Shown here: piece by piece, positions 177 through 25,510 of the stretch
How positions within the stretch are numbered: the stretch's first letter is position 1
Layout: every line of letters begins with the position of its first letter
Program-made: the position numbers and the translations under genes
Notes under the pieces: generated by a model
Seen by the model: only the letters and a program-made list of their open reading frames with translations
Database searches by the model: none
Told to the model about the DNA's origin: nothing
IMG/VR virus record: IMGVR_UViG_3300034061_001183
Span: 1 to 30,000 of that record
Source of the DNA: a virus
Length of the DNA stretch: 30,000 nt
Direction: 5' to 3' (one strand)

Positions 177-959
177 TCAAAAAAATGAATTATCATTCTT
201 ATTTTCAACTACAATTTCCATTATTTCTTCTTTATAAGTATTGGTTTTTGGAGCGGACAACACTTTATGTTTCAATGATTTAGACAGTTTTTTGTTTTCT
301 ATCTTATTACTGATGAATTTTATATAACGATGTTTACCGCTTTCCTTTTTCCTCCAGAATGTATGACCAATCTTCTTCTTTAATACATCTACACTATGAC
401 TGCCCCAATTAGCATATACAGTTCTACTATGTATCCATTCGTAATCAGGCGGACCTTTTAAACTTACACTATAATTAGGCATAATAGCCACATCGACATA
501 ATTATCCCCTTGATATAAAAACCCAGTAGCTTGATAGATTTTACCGAGATGTCCTACTTCACTATCTGCATAACTCAATATGCACTTGATAATGGGAAAA
601 TCACGGTTTAATTGTCTGAATGACTCCGCAATACAATAACTCTCTATATTCTTACCATACCCATCAGCAATCCATAAACGGGTCAATTCTAACACATTAT
701 TATTAACTAATAGAGGACTTATACTAGTGCTAGCATTTCTACCTACTGCCTGTCCATATACTAATACACCAATTAATTTACTATTATAACCACCAAAAAA
801 AGTGCTTTCTATATATTCTTTATAGTAAACACCATATGCAACTCTACAAACCGTCCATTTATGAGTATAATGGTTTTTTACAATAATATCCTTAGCCAAA
901 TTCTTTTGAATGGGTCTAAGGTAAATTAATGATGTATCACAATAATGCGTCTCGGACAT
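177..959 (-). CDS. mom: Mom-like DNA modification protein (GNAT-like fold)
   Basis: This 260-residue protein resembles the Mom family of phage Mu, which converts adenine in phage DNA to a carbamoylmethyl-type derivative and so blocks many restriction enzymes. Visible signatures in order are: N29-H30-Y31 near the N-terminus; a beta strand (IGVLVYGQ, 63-70); the ELTRLW block (91-96) followed by a Gly-rich turn and helix (GYGKNIES, 100-107); SYAD (129-132); and GKIYQATGF (139-147). This is the layout of a GNAT-type acyltransferase core, and the YQATGF/NFxY end is typical of Mom. A basic C-terminal tail (residues 195-230) could contact DNA. The gene is the penultimate one visible on the left, downstream of nrdAB. 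There is no Shine-Dalgarno sequence, and a perfect hairpin ends three bases before the ATG. Family membership is inferred from motifs; the exact modified base and substrate cannot be told. Confidence 0.72.
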   Translation of the reverse strand: MSETHYCDTSLIYLRPIQKNLAKDIIVKNHYTHKWTVCRVAYGVYYKEYIESTFFGGYNSKLIGVLVYGQAVGRNASTSISPLLVNNNVLELTRLWIADGYGKNIESYCIAESFRQLNRDFPIIKCILSYADSEVGHLGKIYQATGFLYQGDNYVDVAIMPNYSVSLKGPPDYEWIHSRTVYANWGSHSVDVLKKKIGHTFWRKKESGKHRYIKFISNKIENKKLSKSLKHKVLSAPKTNTYKEEIMEIVVENKNDNSFF

Positions 960-962
960 AAC

Positions 963-986
963 AATTCTAATATCACTATTAGAATT
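963..986 (-). promoter_or_regulatory. RNA hairpin with GNRA loop abutting the mom-like start codon
   Basis: The transcript strand reads AATTCTAATA-GTGA-TATTAGAATT: a perfect 10-bp stem closed by a GTGA (GNRA-class) tetraloop. Three bases (GTT) separate it from the ATG at 957-959. There is no T-tract after it, so it does not look like an intrinsic terminator for the gene upstream. It occupies the position where a ribosome binding site should be. In phage Mu, mom translation is controlled by an mRNA structure that the Com protein opens; a comparable role here is inference. Confidence 0.6.
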
Positions 987-989
987 ATA

Positions 990-1379
990 TTACACCAGTT
1001 TCAATTTTTCAACTTTTTTTTTATTAACTTTTCCACTATTTAATAAAGTCTTTATAACCTCATTCGACGCATCAAGTTTGATTTCAAGTTCGTTTAACTC
1101 AGCTTGTAATCGTTTATTTTCGTCTTTATATTCCCTCAACTCTTTCTTTATACTTTCATTTTCTTTTTTATACGCATTCATTTCTTGTCTAATCGCATCT
1201 CTATCGGTTCTACATTCATCCAAGTCTTTCTTAAGTTCTTTTCGCAACTTTTCATTGGATTCATTTATTAATTTCACCAAATCAAGTCTTGATTTTTTAG
1301 ACGCTATCGCATATGCAACTACAGATGAAAATATAGCCGGTATAATTGCAATTAAAGAAGTAGAAATTGTATCATTCAT
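990..1379 (-). CDS. Membrane-anchored coiled-coil protein of unknown function
   Basis: This is a 129-residue protein. Residues 5-26 (TSLIAIIPAIFSSVVAYAIA) form one hydrophobic segment, followed by a short basic stretch (SKKSR). From about residue 38 to 113 there is a continuous charged heptad pattern with many Glu, Lys and Leu residues, indicating a long coiled coil. The most likely topology is an N-terminal membrane anchor with the coiled coil on one face of the membrane. The shape recalls small phage membrane proteins such as spanin inner-membrane subunits (Rz-like), but no proline-rich region or neighbouring lysis gene supports that name. It lies between nrdB and the mom-like gene, 30 bases before the latter, and probably shares their transcript. 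Function is unknown. Confidence 0.6.
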   Translation of the reverse strand: MNDTISTSLIAIIPAIFSSVVAYAIASKKSRLDLVKLINESNEKLRKELKKDLDECRTDRDAIRQEMNAYKKENESIKKELREYKDENKRLQAELNELEIKLDASNEVIKTLLNSGKVNKKKVEKLKLV

Positions 1380-1435
1380 ATTATAAAAACATACTTAAAT
1401 AAATATAGTTATTATAAAATAAATTATAAAAATTT

Positions 1436-2494
1436 TTACAATTTGAAATCGTCAAATGCACTATCGTTAATAGTATTATCTACACCTTTTACATAACTAC
1501 TCAATTCGGTTTCTTGAGGGGCTACTTGTAGTTTCTTACTATCATAGTAACTATCCAACCACCCAGCCAATGGATTGGTTTTAGCAGCTGGATACAACTT
1601 CTTATATCCAAGACTTGTTAATCTATTATTGGCCAACCACTCAATATAATGCTTTAAACTCTCAGCAGTCAATCCAATCAAACTACCCTTACTGAATAGA
1701 TAGTCTGCCCAGTCTTTTTCTGCATTAACCGCCATTTCATAAGCAGCATAGATCTTCTCTTCATTTTTCTTAACAATATCTTGGAATCCTTCATCTGGGT
1801 TGTTGATCCAGTTCTTCATGATGTTCTGAGTAATAGCTACGTGTAGATTTTCATCACGGCTAATAAACTTAATAATCTTACTATTACCCTCCATCTTTCC
1901 ACGATAGCCAAAGTAGAAACTACAAGCAAAACTCACATAGAAAATCAATCCTTCAGTGATCTGCGTAGCAAGAACAGCATCAAACAATTGTTGTTTAACA
2001 TCATCTGATGGCTTTAGTAGTTCATCATACTTCTTACTGATTGCAGTAGCTCTCTTAACAATTTCTTCATCATTCAAAATACTATCAAAAAACTTGGTAG
2101 CATCTGGATAAACATTGTTTAGAATGTATGTATAACTGTTACTGTGAATAGTTTCAAAGAAACTCCATGTGTTCATGCAAATCTCCAATTCACTATTGGT
2201 AACATGCTTCATAAGTTCATGAATACTACGACTCAACATACTATCAGTCATAGTCTGAAACTTTAGATTGCTATCAAATACAAAACGTTCTTCAGGTGAA
2301 AGATTCTTATAATCACTAATGTCCTTCACCAAAGAAACTTCTTGTGGTCTCCAAAAGAAATTCAATTGTTGATCGTATAGGTCATAGAACTTAGGATACT
2401 TGATCAAATCATATCGTTGTAGTGATAGATCTTCTCCCAAGAACATTGGATTTCTTAATTGGTCTATGTTTCTTTTATTTAATACAGTTTTCAT
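1436..2494 (-). CDS. nrdB: Ribonucleotide reductase class Ia, beta subunit
   Basis: NrdB (352 residues) houses the diiron centre and tyrosyl radical that start ribonucleotide reduction in the NrdA partner. All expected ligands are present by comparison with the E. coli enzyme: D84 (LKFQTMTD), E114 and H117 (FFETIHS), E181 (ITEGLIFY), E215 and H218 (RDENLH). The radical tyrosine is Y121 (HSNSY). This marks the protein as a tyrosyl-radical class Ia enzyme rather than a metal-only variant. Its length is slightly short of the E. coli protein. It follows nrdA by 12 bases and has the strongest Shine-Dalgarno in this part of the window (AGGAGG at 2500-2505, five bases before the ATG), suggesting strong independent translation within an nrdA-nrdB operon. 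Confidence 0.97.
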   Translation of the reverse strand: MKTVLNKRNIDQLRNPMFLGEDLSLQRYDLIKYPKFYDLYDQQLNFFWRPQEVSLVKDISDYKNLSPEERFVFDSNLKFQTMTDSMLSRSIHELMKHVTNSELEICMNTWSFFETIHSNSYTYILNNVYPDATKFFDSILNDEEIVKRATAISKKYDELLKPSDDVKQQLFDAVLATQITEGLIFYVSFACSFYFGYRGKMEGNSKIIKFISRDENLHVAITQNIMKNWINNPDEGFQDIVKKNEEKIYAAYEMAVNAEKDWADYLFSKGSLIGLTAESLKHYIEWLANNRLTSLGYKKLYPAAKTNPLAGWLDSYYDSKKLQVAPQETELSSYVKGVDNTINDSAFDDFKL

Positions 2495-11777: not shown

Positions 11778-13127
11778 TTATATATCAACAAGTTTCATGT
11801 CATTATAATTAACACCCATATAACTTTTGGTAGGAAACTTTCCATTTTCCATCAAAGTCTTTATTTGACCAAAACATTCTTTTTCTTCCAAACAAACGTC
11901 AAACAAAATACTATCATACGTATACAATATAGCTTTTGTTTGTTTATTGTTTAGATATTGATTTACACTAGCTAATGATTGTATACCAAACTCAGTTTCA
12001 CTTGCTTGTAGAATATAGTTAAATAACTTATTTGGGTTGGGTTCGTATATATGATTTGTGGTGATCTGTCTCTTAAAGATCGGAGTTTCTACATATTGGT
12101 ATCTATTAAAGAAATCCCATCTATGATCAATATATTCATTCATCTTTTTATAATAAGGAATCTCCAACAATTCGTCTGGTATGTTACCATACATACACTG
12201 AAAAGTAACATTCTTAGCTGTTTTAATCTCCTCAGATGTTAATTGTTCTTTTCCGTAATAATACCGTCCAAGATATTCGTAAGCATTTGACGGTAGATTA
12301 TAATTAATTAACTTTGCTACCAAATGTGGATGATACGCACTATAATCAATCATAAATAGAATACCGTCCTTTCCGAATCTACTTATGAAACTACTACGAC
12401 ACCCATTCTCCTTGTTTAAGGCGCTATAGTTTACATTTCCAAACCGATTGCTAGGTCTACCCGTGGATGTATACATATTATACTGTGTATACACAAATTC
12501 ATTTATTACCTTAACGTTCTTATCTCCAAAGTGAGTATTGAAAATGTCTTCGTTAACTTTTAATCCATTCTTTTCTAGAATCTGTAGATTATCCGTTATA
12601 ATTCCGTTTAAATCATTAAAACTACTGTCTAGCCTTACATTTCTAACTCGTTTCAATGATTCCACACACATTTGTTCAAATTTCTCCAAATGTTTTGTAA
12701 TAGGAATAACTTTGTTTATATCACTATAGTTAGAAAACTTCTGTTTATAGAAATTATGAGATGCGGTATCGTATTCACTATAATCATCTACTTTACCATC
12801 AGAGATAAAGAATATGATATTGATGTCAAACAGATTTTGAATAGGAAGAATATGACTAAATTTCTTTTTATCAAACACCCACTTTTTACCACTCAGTCGG
12901 TTTAAATCATACTTTAACTGTTCAACATCAAGTTTAAATGATGAATCGTTGTGATTTATGGAAATGACGTTAGTTTTTTGCTTGTGAATATTATACGAGA
13001 AAAATAAAGAAGGAATTGATACGCATGGATGAAAACGATCATCTACTTGAATTACATCGCAGATTAAATCGTCGTCTCTATTTTCTTTTAGAAAAAGTTT
13101 GTATTCGTCACTCGACCGTATGACCAT
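11778..13127 (-). CDS. Compact family A DNA polymerase-like protein
   Basis: This 449-residue protein has the palm motifs of DNA polymerase I. Thumb/palm entry LQILEKNGLKVNEDIF (181-196) matches the usual MExxGVxxD block. STGRPSNRFGNVNYSALN (221-238) matches TGRLSSxxPNLQNIP. Motif A is FMIDYSAYHPHLV with D261; motif B is AKNVTFQCMYG with K305, F309, Y313 and G314; motif C is YTYDSILFD with D405. The Glu that usually follows the motif C Asp is Ser here, and the first Arg of motif B is missing. Residues 1-130 may be a decayed 3'-5' exonuclease: Y116xxxD120 resembles exo III, but the DxE of exo I is absent. It is much smaller than Klenow-type enzymes. Whether it is the main polymerase or an accessory one is unknown. 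Confidence 0.8.
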   Translation of the reverse strand: MVIRSSDEYKLFLKENRDDDLICDVIQVDDRFHPCVSIPSLFFSYNIHKQKTNVISINHNDSSFKLDVEQLKYDLNRLSGKKWVFDKKKFSHILPIQNLFDINIIFFISDGKVDDYSEYDTASHNFYKQKFSNYSDINKVIPITKHLEKFEQMCVESLKRVRNVRLDSSFNDLNGIITDNLQILEKNGLKVNEDIFNTHFGDKNVKVINEFVYTQYNMYTSTGRPSNRFGNVNYSALNKENGCRSSFISRFGKDGILFMIDYSAYHPHLVAKLINYNLPSNAYEYLGRYYYGKEQLTSEEIKTAKNVTFQCMYGNIPDELLEIPYYKKMNEYIDHRWDFFNRYQYVETPIFKRQITTNHIYEPNPNKLFNYILQASETEFGIQSLASVNQYLNNKQTKAILYTYDSILFDVCLEEKECFGQIKTLMENGKFPTKSYMGVNYNDMKLVDI

Positions 13128-22709: not shown

Positions 22710-23201
22710 TTAATATTGGAGAATACAATAGTCAACACTCAAAGTAACGCCAATTACAAGAGGTTCACCACTGTCTGTCCAATCACCTTCACCGAAATCA
22801 GCTTGGGTAATAAATGCACCCTTTAGTGTCCATTCTTCTACCTTGTCACCGACAGGTCCAAGAACGTTGATAGTCAAATCTTTCTTATAGAAATCGCTAT
22901 ATCCATCACGTCCGGTTACAGATTCGTGACTTAAACGAACCCATTCCATTACTGCTTGAGCACCAGAAGGAACGATTGGATCATAAAGTTCCATCGTAAT
23001 ATCGTCCCAAGTGGTTTTTCCCTTGTAGTAACGTTGAATATTGATGTGGTCAAGAGTTTTCTTTTCGCTTTTTACTGTTGGTCTCTTTACCTTTCTTACA
23101 AGAAAGCTTGGGATACCATCACAATATAAAATAAAACGATTCTTTGTTTTTGTCTCGAAATTCGTGAAGAATATTTCGTTGCTATTTAGTATATCTGCCA
23201 T
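22710..23201 (-). CDS. 19: Tail tube protein gp19
   Basis: At 163 residues it equals the length of T4 gp19, which stacks in hexameric rings to form the inner tail tube. The sequence has the family pattern: an N-terminal arm leading into NRFILYCDGIPSFLVRKVKRPTVKSEK (21-47), the loop HINIQRYYKGKTTWDDITMELYDPI (52-76), the helix AQAVMEWVRLSHE (80-92), and the ending DWTDSGEPLVIGVTLSVDYCILQY. It has its own strong Shine-Dalgarno, a late-promoter-like TATAAATA and a terminator, so it appears to be an independently expressed, high-level late gene. Confidence 0.93.
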   Translation of the reverse strand: MADILNSNEIFFTNFETKTKNRFILYCDGIPSFLVRKVKRPTVKSEKKTLDHINIQRYYKGKTTWDDITMELYDPIVPSGAQAVMEWVRLSHESVTGRDGYSDFYKKDLTINVLGPVGDKVEEWTLKGAFITQADFGEGDWTDSGEPLVIGVTLSVDYCILQY

Positions 23202-23222: not shown

Positions 23223-23280
23223 TTAATAAAATCAATACAAGATTGTTTTCATATATAAATATTTTATAATTTAAAAATAT

Positions 23281-23337: not shown

Positions 23338-24846
23338 ATGCCTAGAAAAAAAGATAACACCAGATGGCTTTCTATAGAATGTAAAGTTTGTAAAACTATA
23401 TTTGATTGTAGGGTGTCAAGGCCTAGGACTTATTGTAGTAAGAAGTGTTCAACTAATGATATAGATCTAAATACAATTAGAATCAACAAAACCAAACAGA
23501 CTTGTATTGAGAAGTATGGTGGTCATCCTATGACCACAGAGAAAACCAAAGATGCATTAAAGAAATCTTTGTTAGAAAAATATGGAGTGGATCATTATAG
23601 TAAGCATAATGATTATAATAAAAAAGTCAAATCGACCAAGTTATTGAAATATGGAAATGAAAAATATACAAATGTTGATAAGATAAAGTCTACGCTTCTT
23701 GAGAAATATGGTGTTGATAATTCACAAAAAATAAAAAGCGTAAAAGAAAAAACGTCAAATACAAAAAAAGAGAACCACTATGAATTTTTGAAAAATCATT
23801 TTGATGGTTCAAATTTAATTTGGTTATGTGAACAAAAAGATTATGTTGGTTATCATTTTTCTAATGTTTATAATTTTAAATGCAAGGTTTGTGAGAAAAA
23901 CTTTGAAAGCACTGTTTATAATTTAAATAATGTTTTTTGTGATTACTGTCATCCAGAGAAAGTTACTACCGTTGAAAATGAAATTTATCAATTTCTGATT
24001 GAGATTCTTAAAAAAGAAGAAATTATAAATAGAAACGATAGGACAGTCTTGAATGGTAAAGAACTTGATTTTTATGTTCCGTCAAAAAACTTTGCGATTG
24101 AAATCAATGGATTATATTGGCACAGTGAAAATGCAGGTGGGATAAATAAAAATTATCATTTGAATAAAACTAAAAGTTGTATGACATATGGTATTCATCT
24201 GATTCACATTTTTGAAAATGAGTGGATTAATAAAAAAGAAATTGTTAAATCTATAATCAGAAACTTTACGAATTGCAATAACGATTTAATTAAAATAAAT
24301 GGAAGAGAATGTGAAATCAAAGAAATAGACGAACCTCTTAAAAACGCTTTCTTGAATGAAAACCATCTTCAAGGAGAAGATAAGTCTACGGTTAAAATTG
24401 GATTATTTCACGATAATGAACTTGTGAGTGTTATGACTTTTAGAAAATCTTCTCGTTTTGACAAAACAAGTGAATGGGAACTTGTTCGTTTTTGTAATAA
24501 ATTAAATACACTAATAAATGGGGGTGCCAGTAAATTGTTTAGTTATTTTATTAAAAACTATAATCCAAAGAATATTGTTTCTTATAGTGATCGTCGTTAT
24601 TTTAGTGGAAAGATATACGAAAAGTTAGGTTTTAGTTTCGTAGATTTTACACCGGTAAATTACTACTATATTATAAATAAATATAAAGATTTACGACACC
24701 GTATGAGTTTCCAGAAACATAAGTTATCTAAATTGTTGAAAGTATATGACCCGAATTTAAGTGAGTGGGAAAATATGAAAAACAATGGATACGATAGAAT
24801 ATGGGATTGTGGCAATTCCAAATATTTTATATCATTCACACACTAA
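23338..24846 (+). CDS. EDxHD (Vsr-like) homing-type endonuclease with Mom-like C-terminal domain
   Basis: This 502-residue protein is on the strand opposite its neighbours. An N-terminal zinc finger (C15, C18, C33, C37) is followed by tandem EKYG-type repeats (about 58-130: EKYGGH, EKYGVDH, LKYGNE, EKYGVDN), a probable DNA-binding array. A second zinc knuckle uses C182/C185/C201/C204. Residues 211-300 are a Vsr-like nuclease: E213/E215, D244 (GKELDFY), E255 in FAIEINGLYWHSE with H262, and HLIHIFENEW (287-296). This matches the EDxHD homing endonucleases found in phages. Residues about 325-500 form a separate domain with ELVRF, GGASKLF, SYSD and GKIYEKLGF, parallel to Mom. Its stop overlaps the convergent nucleotidyltransferase gene by 11 bases. 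Mobility is inferred. Confidence 0.85.
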   Translation: MPRKKDNTRWLSIECKVCKTIFDCRVSRPRTYCSKKCSTNDIDLNTIRINKTKQTCIEKYGGHPMTTEKTKDALKKSLLEKYGVDHYSKHNDYNKKVKSTKLLKYGNEKYTNVDKIKSTLLEKYGVDNSQKIKSVKEKTSNTKKENHYEFLKNHFDGSNLIWLCEQKDYVGYHFSNVYNFKCKVCEKNFESTVYNLNNVFCDYCHPEKVTTVENEIYQFLIEILKKEEIINRNDRTVLNGKELDFYVPSKNFAIEINGLYWHSENAGGINKNYHLNKTKSCMTYGIHLIHIFENEWINKKEIVKSIIRNFTNCNNDLIKINGRECEIKEIDEPLKNAFLNENHLQGEDKSTVKIGLFHDNELVSVMTFRKSSRFDKTSEWELVRFCNKLNTLINGGASKLFSYFIKNYNPKNIVSYSDRRYFSGKIYEKLGFSFVDFTPVNYYYIINKYKDLRHRMSFQKHKLSKLLKVYDPNLSEWENMKNNGYDRIWDCGNSKYFISFTH

Positions 24847-25510
24847 CTTGTTTATCGTATACAACGTTGATTGCGTCTTTAAGTCTATCTAAGTGACCTC
24901 TGTTTCTTAATAATTTAAATACTATATTTTCATTGCTAAGTTCACCGCCAGTGTCCAACCCAGACTGACGCATATCATATACATCCTTTAACGTGTTTTT
25001 TAATAACTCAAGGTTAGACTCCTTGATTGCACTGTTTATTTTATATACAGCGTCATTATATTTGTTTTGAACCAATTCTACATCAACGGTAAAATTTTCG
25101 TATTTTGGTTTGGATACCCAGTTATTAGCTACCAATGAATAAACACCGCTGGATCTATTCTTTTTACTGATATCTTGTATAAATACCTCAACATTGTATC
25201 CATTGATATGAATATTGTGATTTTTATTCCACGCAGCTTTTAATTGAGTTACATATTTCTCAACAAGTTCTACATTAGGGTCAACGTTTTTAAAGTTTAT
25301 TACCAGATGTAAATCAAAATCGCTGAACTTAGACCAATTATAATTTGCCAAGCTCCCCACGAATAAAATATCAACAATTGGAGCGGTTAACTCAGTATCT
25401 TTATAGAAATCATTGGCAACTTGAATAAGTTTCTCTTTGATCTCTTTATTCAAAACCAATCCATTCCAAACATCAGGATTGAGTTGGGTATTATAAATTC
25501 TATACTTCAT
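24836..25510 (-). CDS. Nucleotidyltransferase-fold protein
   Basis: This 224-residue protein has the pol-beta-type nucleotidyltransferase signature: G52-S53 in LFVGSLANYNW, then D64-x-D66 in FSDFDLHLV, and a probable third acid E108 in NGYNVEVFIQD. The rest is helical. Such minimal enzymes transfer NMP to a protein, RNA or small molecule; the substrate cannot be read from sequence, and nothing indicates an antitoxin or kinase partner. Its start overlaps the stop of the HAD gene upstream as ATGA, so the two are translated together and may act in one pathway. Its 3' end overlaps the convergent endonuclease gene. Confidence 0.75.
   Translation of the reverse strand: MKYRIYNTQLNPDVWNGLVLNKEIKEKLIQVANDFYKDTELTAPIVDILFVGSLANYNWSKFSDFDLHLVINFKNVDPNVELVEKYVTQLKAAWNKNHNIHINGYNVEVFIQDISKKNRSSGVYSLVANNWVSKPKYENFTVDVELVQNKYNDAVYKINSAIKESNLELLKNTLKDVYDMRQSGLDTGGELSNENIVFKLLRNRGHLDRLKDAINVVYDKQVSV

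Follow-up and report, generated by a model that had tools for sequence, protein, structure and literature searches.

What would an acyltransferase-like domain do at the end of a homing endonuclease? This question is raised by a 502-residue protein encoded in the window, by which is meant the whole 30-kb stretch of a viral record with T4-like genes that was analysed here. An earlier note on the same DNA had proposed that residues about 325–500 of this EDxHD protein parallel a mom-like protein encoded in the window, so that a nuclease would be fused to a domain able to modify or recognise DNA. The features concerned are collected in Table 1. As a separate observation on the gene content, the window also encodes a 449-aa protein resembling family A DNA polymerases (11778–13127, minus strand; PF00476, E 2e-7, below the cut-off and covering the C-terminal part only), whereas a polymerase of family B would be the expectation for a T4-like genome.

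Table 1. Coordinates of the Hef gene, its domains, its flanks and the comparison gene in the window.
Feature	Position	Strand	Basis
Hef-like free-standing homing endonuclease gene, 502 aa	23338..24846	+	phrog_3339, phrog_559 and PADLOC HEase matches
N-terminal Cys cluster C15-x2-C18...C33-x3-C37, zinc-knuckle-like	23380..23448	+	near-invariant in 41 relatives; function predicted
DUF7487 repeat region, aa 35-116	23440..23685	+	PF24308, E 5e-13
Second Cys cluster C182/C185/C201/C204	23881..23949	+	near-invariant in 41 relatives
EDxHD nuclease domain, aa ~221-310	23998..24267	+	match to I-Bth0305I 3R3P, E 0.0027
Mom-like GNAT-fold domain, aa ~319-501	24292..24840	+	profile, alignment and predicted-structure evidence
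Tail tube (gp19-like) gene, adjoined by Hef in occupied genomes	22710..23201	-	occupied and empty sites in relatives
224-aa gene, other flank of Hef	24836..25510	-	occupied and empty sites in relatives
TATTTATA element in the interval separating the start codons of Hef and tube	23254..23261	-	found in occupied and empty sites
Stand-alone Mom-family protein, 260 aa, outside the element and used for comparison	177..959	-	PF25680, E 1e-41; PDB 8BV8, E 1.6e-11

The protein as a whole matches the homing endonuclease family phrog_3339 (E 1e-117) from residue 13 to 497, phrog_559 (E 2e-100) and the PADLOC HEase model (E 8e-7), and its reading frame lies on the strand opposite to both immediate neighbours. 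The DUF7487 region is, from its sequence, probably DNA-binding. Within the nuclease domain, D244, E255, H262, H274 and K277 are all present and are conserved in relatives, D244, H262 and K277 being invariant among 41 of them. These catalytic-type residues are shared with the EDxHD endonuclease I-Bth0305I (3R3P), the match being confined to the nuclease domain; I-Bth0305I is intron-encoded, unlike the free-standing Hef. The family matches, the 3R3P match and the intact nuclease residues bear out the description of the EDxHD protein as a homing endonuclease, and it is close to certain that it is a Hef endonuclease carrying a Mom-homologous domain.

The relationship of the C-terminal domain (CTD) to Mom was established at the level of profiles. 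The C-terminal 177 residues match the Pfam Mom family PF25680 with E 8e-5 to 1e-4 and 22.4–22.8 bits, which falls below the curated cut-off of 27.1 bits, and match the 'Mom-like' phrog_1384 with E 1.3e-6; NCBIfam contains no model. Among 32 diverse CTDs, PF25680 is matched by 11 (best E 5e-8) and other GNAT models by one, which makes a generic non-Mom GNAT less likely. In the profile-profile comparison that the earlier note had called for, an alignment of 49 CTDs matched an alignment of 15 Moms with hhalign Prob 98.0 and E 2.3e-13, and the global alignment extended as far as the last strand. Chance resemblance is excluded by the controls, since Prob was 0.3 for a reversed Mom profile and reached no more than 5.1 in 100 column shuffles. 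The depth of the Mom alignment matters: against 12 closely related Moms instead of the 15 diverse ones, the CTD gave a weak match (Prob 29, E 6e-4). An HMM of the CTD run against PDB sequences did not reach Mu Mom (8BV8), its best match being another GNAT at E 0.07, and no relative was detected in bacterial genomes, at the sensitivity used, with the window CTD as query. At the residue level, the parallel between the two window proteins proved sound, with closely agreeing domain limits: the pairs N342-H343/N29-H30, ELVRF/ELTRL, SYSD/SYAD and GKIYEKLGF/GKIYQATGF are real and in register, and in the Gly-rich loop GGASK is aligned in register with NIESY, placing S398 opposite S107.

The predicted fold is consistent with this assignment. 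An AlphaFold2 model of Hef, built from an alignment of 41 relatives, has a mean pLDDT of 91 and shows the CTD in the beta-alpha-beta arrangement of GNATs. Superposition of the predicted folds of both window proteins had been suggested; the Hef half of this held, the CTD model superposing on solved Mu Mom, while folding of the window's own Mom from 12 close relatives yielded pLDDT 34, and the structural comparison therefore rests on 8BV8. Phage Mu Mom ranked first in a Foldseek search of the PDB (E 1.1e-6), and a second structural comparison aligned 166 residues of model positions 321–502 with it (Z 12.2, rmsd 4.0), the longest superposition in the match list. Ordinary GNATs reached Z 12–13 over about 130 residues, similar to or above the value for Mom, so that Z-scores alone do not separate the two in this model; the fold is that of a GNAT, and the sequence evidence specifically favours Mom.

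Conservation of the active site bears directly on function. Numbered as in the 241-aa Mu annotation, the conserved columns of Moms include H58, Y59, E108, R111, N121, S124, D149 and Y159. Six of these, namely H58, E108, R111, S124, D149 and Y159, correspond to Hef H343, E381, R384, S398, D418 and Y427, and all six are present in the window Hef. A GNAT fold and the H, E, R, S, D, Y set are common to Hef and the Mom family at about 16–20% identity. The Hef CTD differs from Mom in being fused to a nuclease, in scoring under the Pfam cut-off and in lacking four Mom-invariant residues: Tyr59, replaced by Leu, Ile or Pro in all Hefs (L344 in the window), and G81, D116 and N121, the last in the column of the Gly-rich loop. 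Across 32 CTDs with identities to the window CTD down to 28%, H343, R384, G395 and Y427 are invariant and E381, D418 and K399 almost so; Y427 and the following GF are also generic GNAT features. The PDB title of 8BV8 is 'inactive mutant S124A', and since S124 aligns with S398, the residue lost in that mutant corresponds to Hef S398. Among 50 relatives the S398 column holds Ser in 41, Gly in four and Glu in three. The Glu variants (GGAEK or GGLEK) occur in the Hef genes of L069, L175 and L204, where the other active-site residues are kept. In addition, D418 is replaced by Asn in the T-even Hef located between nrdA and nrdB.

Selection on the CTD is as strong as on the remainder of the protein. 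Median dN/dS is 0.071 for the N-terminal part, 0.065 for the nuclease and 0.059 for the CTD (40 closest pairs, which are not independent), so that purifying selection is strong and equal across all three parts. Furthermore, two relatives, L225 (2904–4433, 510 aa) and L069 (2969–4525, 519 aa), one of them located at the tail-tube site, have a damaged nuclease motif, PDEDSHYRKEE and EDDDSHYHKEE respectively replacing EDEGWHYHKEE, and almost all of their CTD motif residues are kept. This pattern hints that the CTD is useful in its own right, recent decay of the nuclease being a possible alternative.

Altogether, a nuclease is fused here to a Mom-related acyltransferase-fold domain that retains most of the conserved Mom active-site residues, as had been suspected. 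A modifying role for this domain is supported by Mom homology in profile and fold, the conserved residues with the S398/S124 match, the low dN/dS of the CTD and its persistence in nuclease-damaged relatives. Counted against it are the four absent Mom-invariant residues, the Gly, Glu and Asn substitutions at S398 and D418, and the generic nature of Y427/GF. In the strongest rival explanation, the Mom-like domain would be catalytically inert and serve as a DNA-recognition or structural module, its conserved residues holding the fold or contacting bases. Phage free-standing homing endonucleases normally have extra DNA-binding modules (PMC3943268), in seven of the 50 relatives Glu or Gly stands in place of the Ser equivalent to S124 of Mom, the other residues being kept, Tyr59 is missing throughout, and no complete stand-alone gene for a Hef-type CTD was confirmed. 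Nevertheless, five residues of the Mom set (H, E, R, D and Y) are almost invariant across very divergent proteins, whereas a contact surface would be expected to be the most variable part if differing targets were recognised. An inert module is accordingly a serious possibility, if a doubtful one.

The distribution of the gene indicates mobility. In the close relatives L162–L165 and L175, Hef is flanked by the 224-aa gene on one side and the tail tube gene on the other and is antisense to both, and in the further relatives L177, L178, L204 and L225 it adjoins the tube gene. In eight relatives (L166–L168, L170, L172–L174 and L180) the 224-aa and tube genes are 70–80 bp apart with no insert. Hef is hence a free-standing gene with both occupied and empty sites, as is characteristic of a homing endonuclease. 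Along the locus, neither L162 nor L163 shows a clear tract of recent co-conversion in its nucleotide identity, and in L165 a peak around Hef and tube is suggestive only. The element TATTTATA at this locus occurs 14 times in the window, compared with 5.9 occurrences expected by shuffling, a few of these copies lying immediately upstream of start codons; it is possibly a promoter element.

Relatives with the same architecture are widespread. Campylobacter phages carry 9–12 Hef copies each, adjoining topoisomerase, gp32, gp18, gp23 and gp19 genes; phage PA5oct has five Hef-type places by CTD search, annotated as putative homing endonuclease; and the T-even phages FL23 and ESh36 encode a homologue with the same CTD between nrdA and nrdB. 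A second, divergent Hef gene of opposite orientation lies about 1 kb from the first in many loci (L010, L011, L045, L054, L062, L067 and L069; around 400–2300, minus strand). The Hef of U5, Hef15–Hef85 of Campylobacter phage NCTC12673 and F-LimX of LIMEstone1 belong to the same phrog_3339 and phrog_559 families, share the CTD of the window Hef and are likewise free-standing beside conserved genes; some NCTC12673 copies are annotated 'similar to Hef [Bacteriophage U5] at C-terminus'. The window protein has less than 60% identity to any annotated phage record. Its gene adjoins the tail tube gene, as does a Hef-like gene in LIMEstone1 (PMC3296691), whereas U5 hef is reported to be located between nrdA and nrdB and to encode a product with endonuclease activity and cut sites near its own gene (PMC3322345, PMC2988022). 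Homing is therefore supported by the occupied and empty sites, the multiple copies, the nrdA/nrdB relatives and the reported cutting by U5 Hef.

The earlier note's remark that it knew of no described function for this domain calls for correction: Hef has been studied experimentally in phage U5, and fusions of Mom domains to nucleases of the REase fold, reported from jumbo phages, have been interpreted as restriction-modification, with five 'momylating enzymes' counted in PA5oct (Iyer et al., 2021; PMC7824862). Two Acinetobacter phage records also label the protein 'putative nuclease/acetyltransferase'; the fusion itself is not new. The REase-fold fusions very probably belong to the same protein family as Hef, both counts for PA5oct being five; the window copy differs in residing in a T4-like phage fragment of 30 kb and in behaving as a mobile gene. 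A restriction-modification-like weapon, in which the Mom domain would mark the whole phage genome and the nuclease would destroy unmarked host or competitor DNA, has thus been predicted in print for the same fusion, requires the same catalytic CTD and overlaps with the idea of self-protecting homing. It appears unlikely here, because presence or absence at one intergenic site, orientation opposite to the neighbours, the many copies beside different conserved genes and the reported U5 Hef cutting near its own gene all fit homing better, and the main text of Iyer et al. (2021) mentions neither Hef nor homing. The link between the homing and 'momylating' views may be under-appreciated, as far as an incomplete literature search can indicate. 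A GNAT that is active on protein, such as the transcription or translation machinery of the host, and plays no part in homing is very improbable: protein N-acetyltransferases match the fold equally by Z-score (Z 12–13), yet the sequence profiles indicate Mom, almost no other GNAT model was matched and the domain is joined to the nuclease in every intact relative examined.

The preferred reading, put forward tentatively, is a homing endonuclease whose CTD would modify DNA so as to protect donor sites. As a homing endonuclease gene, Hef is a selfish gene, which would cut homologous DNA that lacks it near the tail-tube gene and be copied in by repair. The N-terminal zinc-knuckle and DUF7487 repeats would likely recognise the target and the EDxHD domain would perform the nuclease step, while the Mom-family GNAT domain would take a small group from a donor of CoA type or a related one and attach it to a base, presumably adenine as for Mom, at or near the target. 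A genome carrying the gene would thereby resist its own nuclease. Hef is reportedly able, in the 2005 paper describing it, to cut its own phage's DNA as well, which is why a protective modification would be useful. It is conceivable, if slightly more doubtful, that Hefs are self-immunising in the full sense, with one polypeptide cutting the empty allele and writing a Mom-type base mark that shields the occupied one. Such a scheme would account for the way in which a free-standing endonuclease with a target uninterrupted by its own gene spares its carrier. Since the same phage has a stand-alone Mom-family gene, near the nrdB gene, a Mom-made mark could influence cutting by Hef as well.

Few genes are repeated as often in Campylobacter phages as those for Hef, which also occur across T4-like and jumbo phages. 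Given the conserved residues and the solved Mom structure, the role of the CTD is open to direct test. An inert domain would be a clean example of an acyltransferase fold taken over for recognising DNA. If it modifies DNA, immunity would be built into free-standing homing, and the literatures on homing endonucleases and on 'momylating' fusions of jumbo phages would be describing the same proteins.
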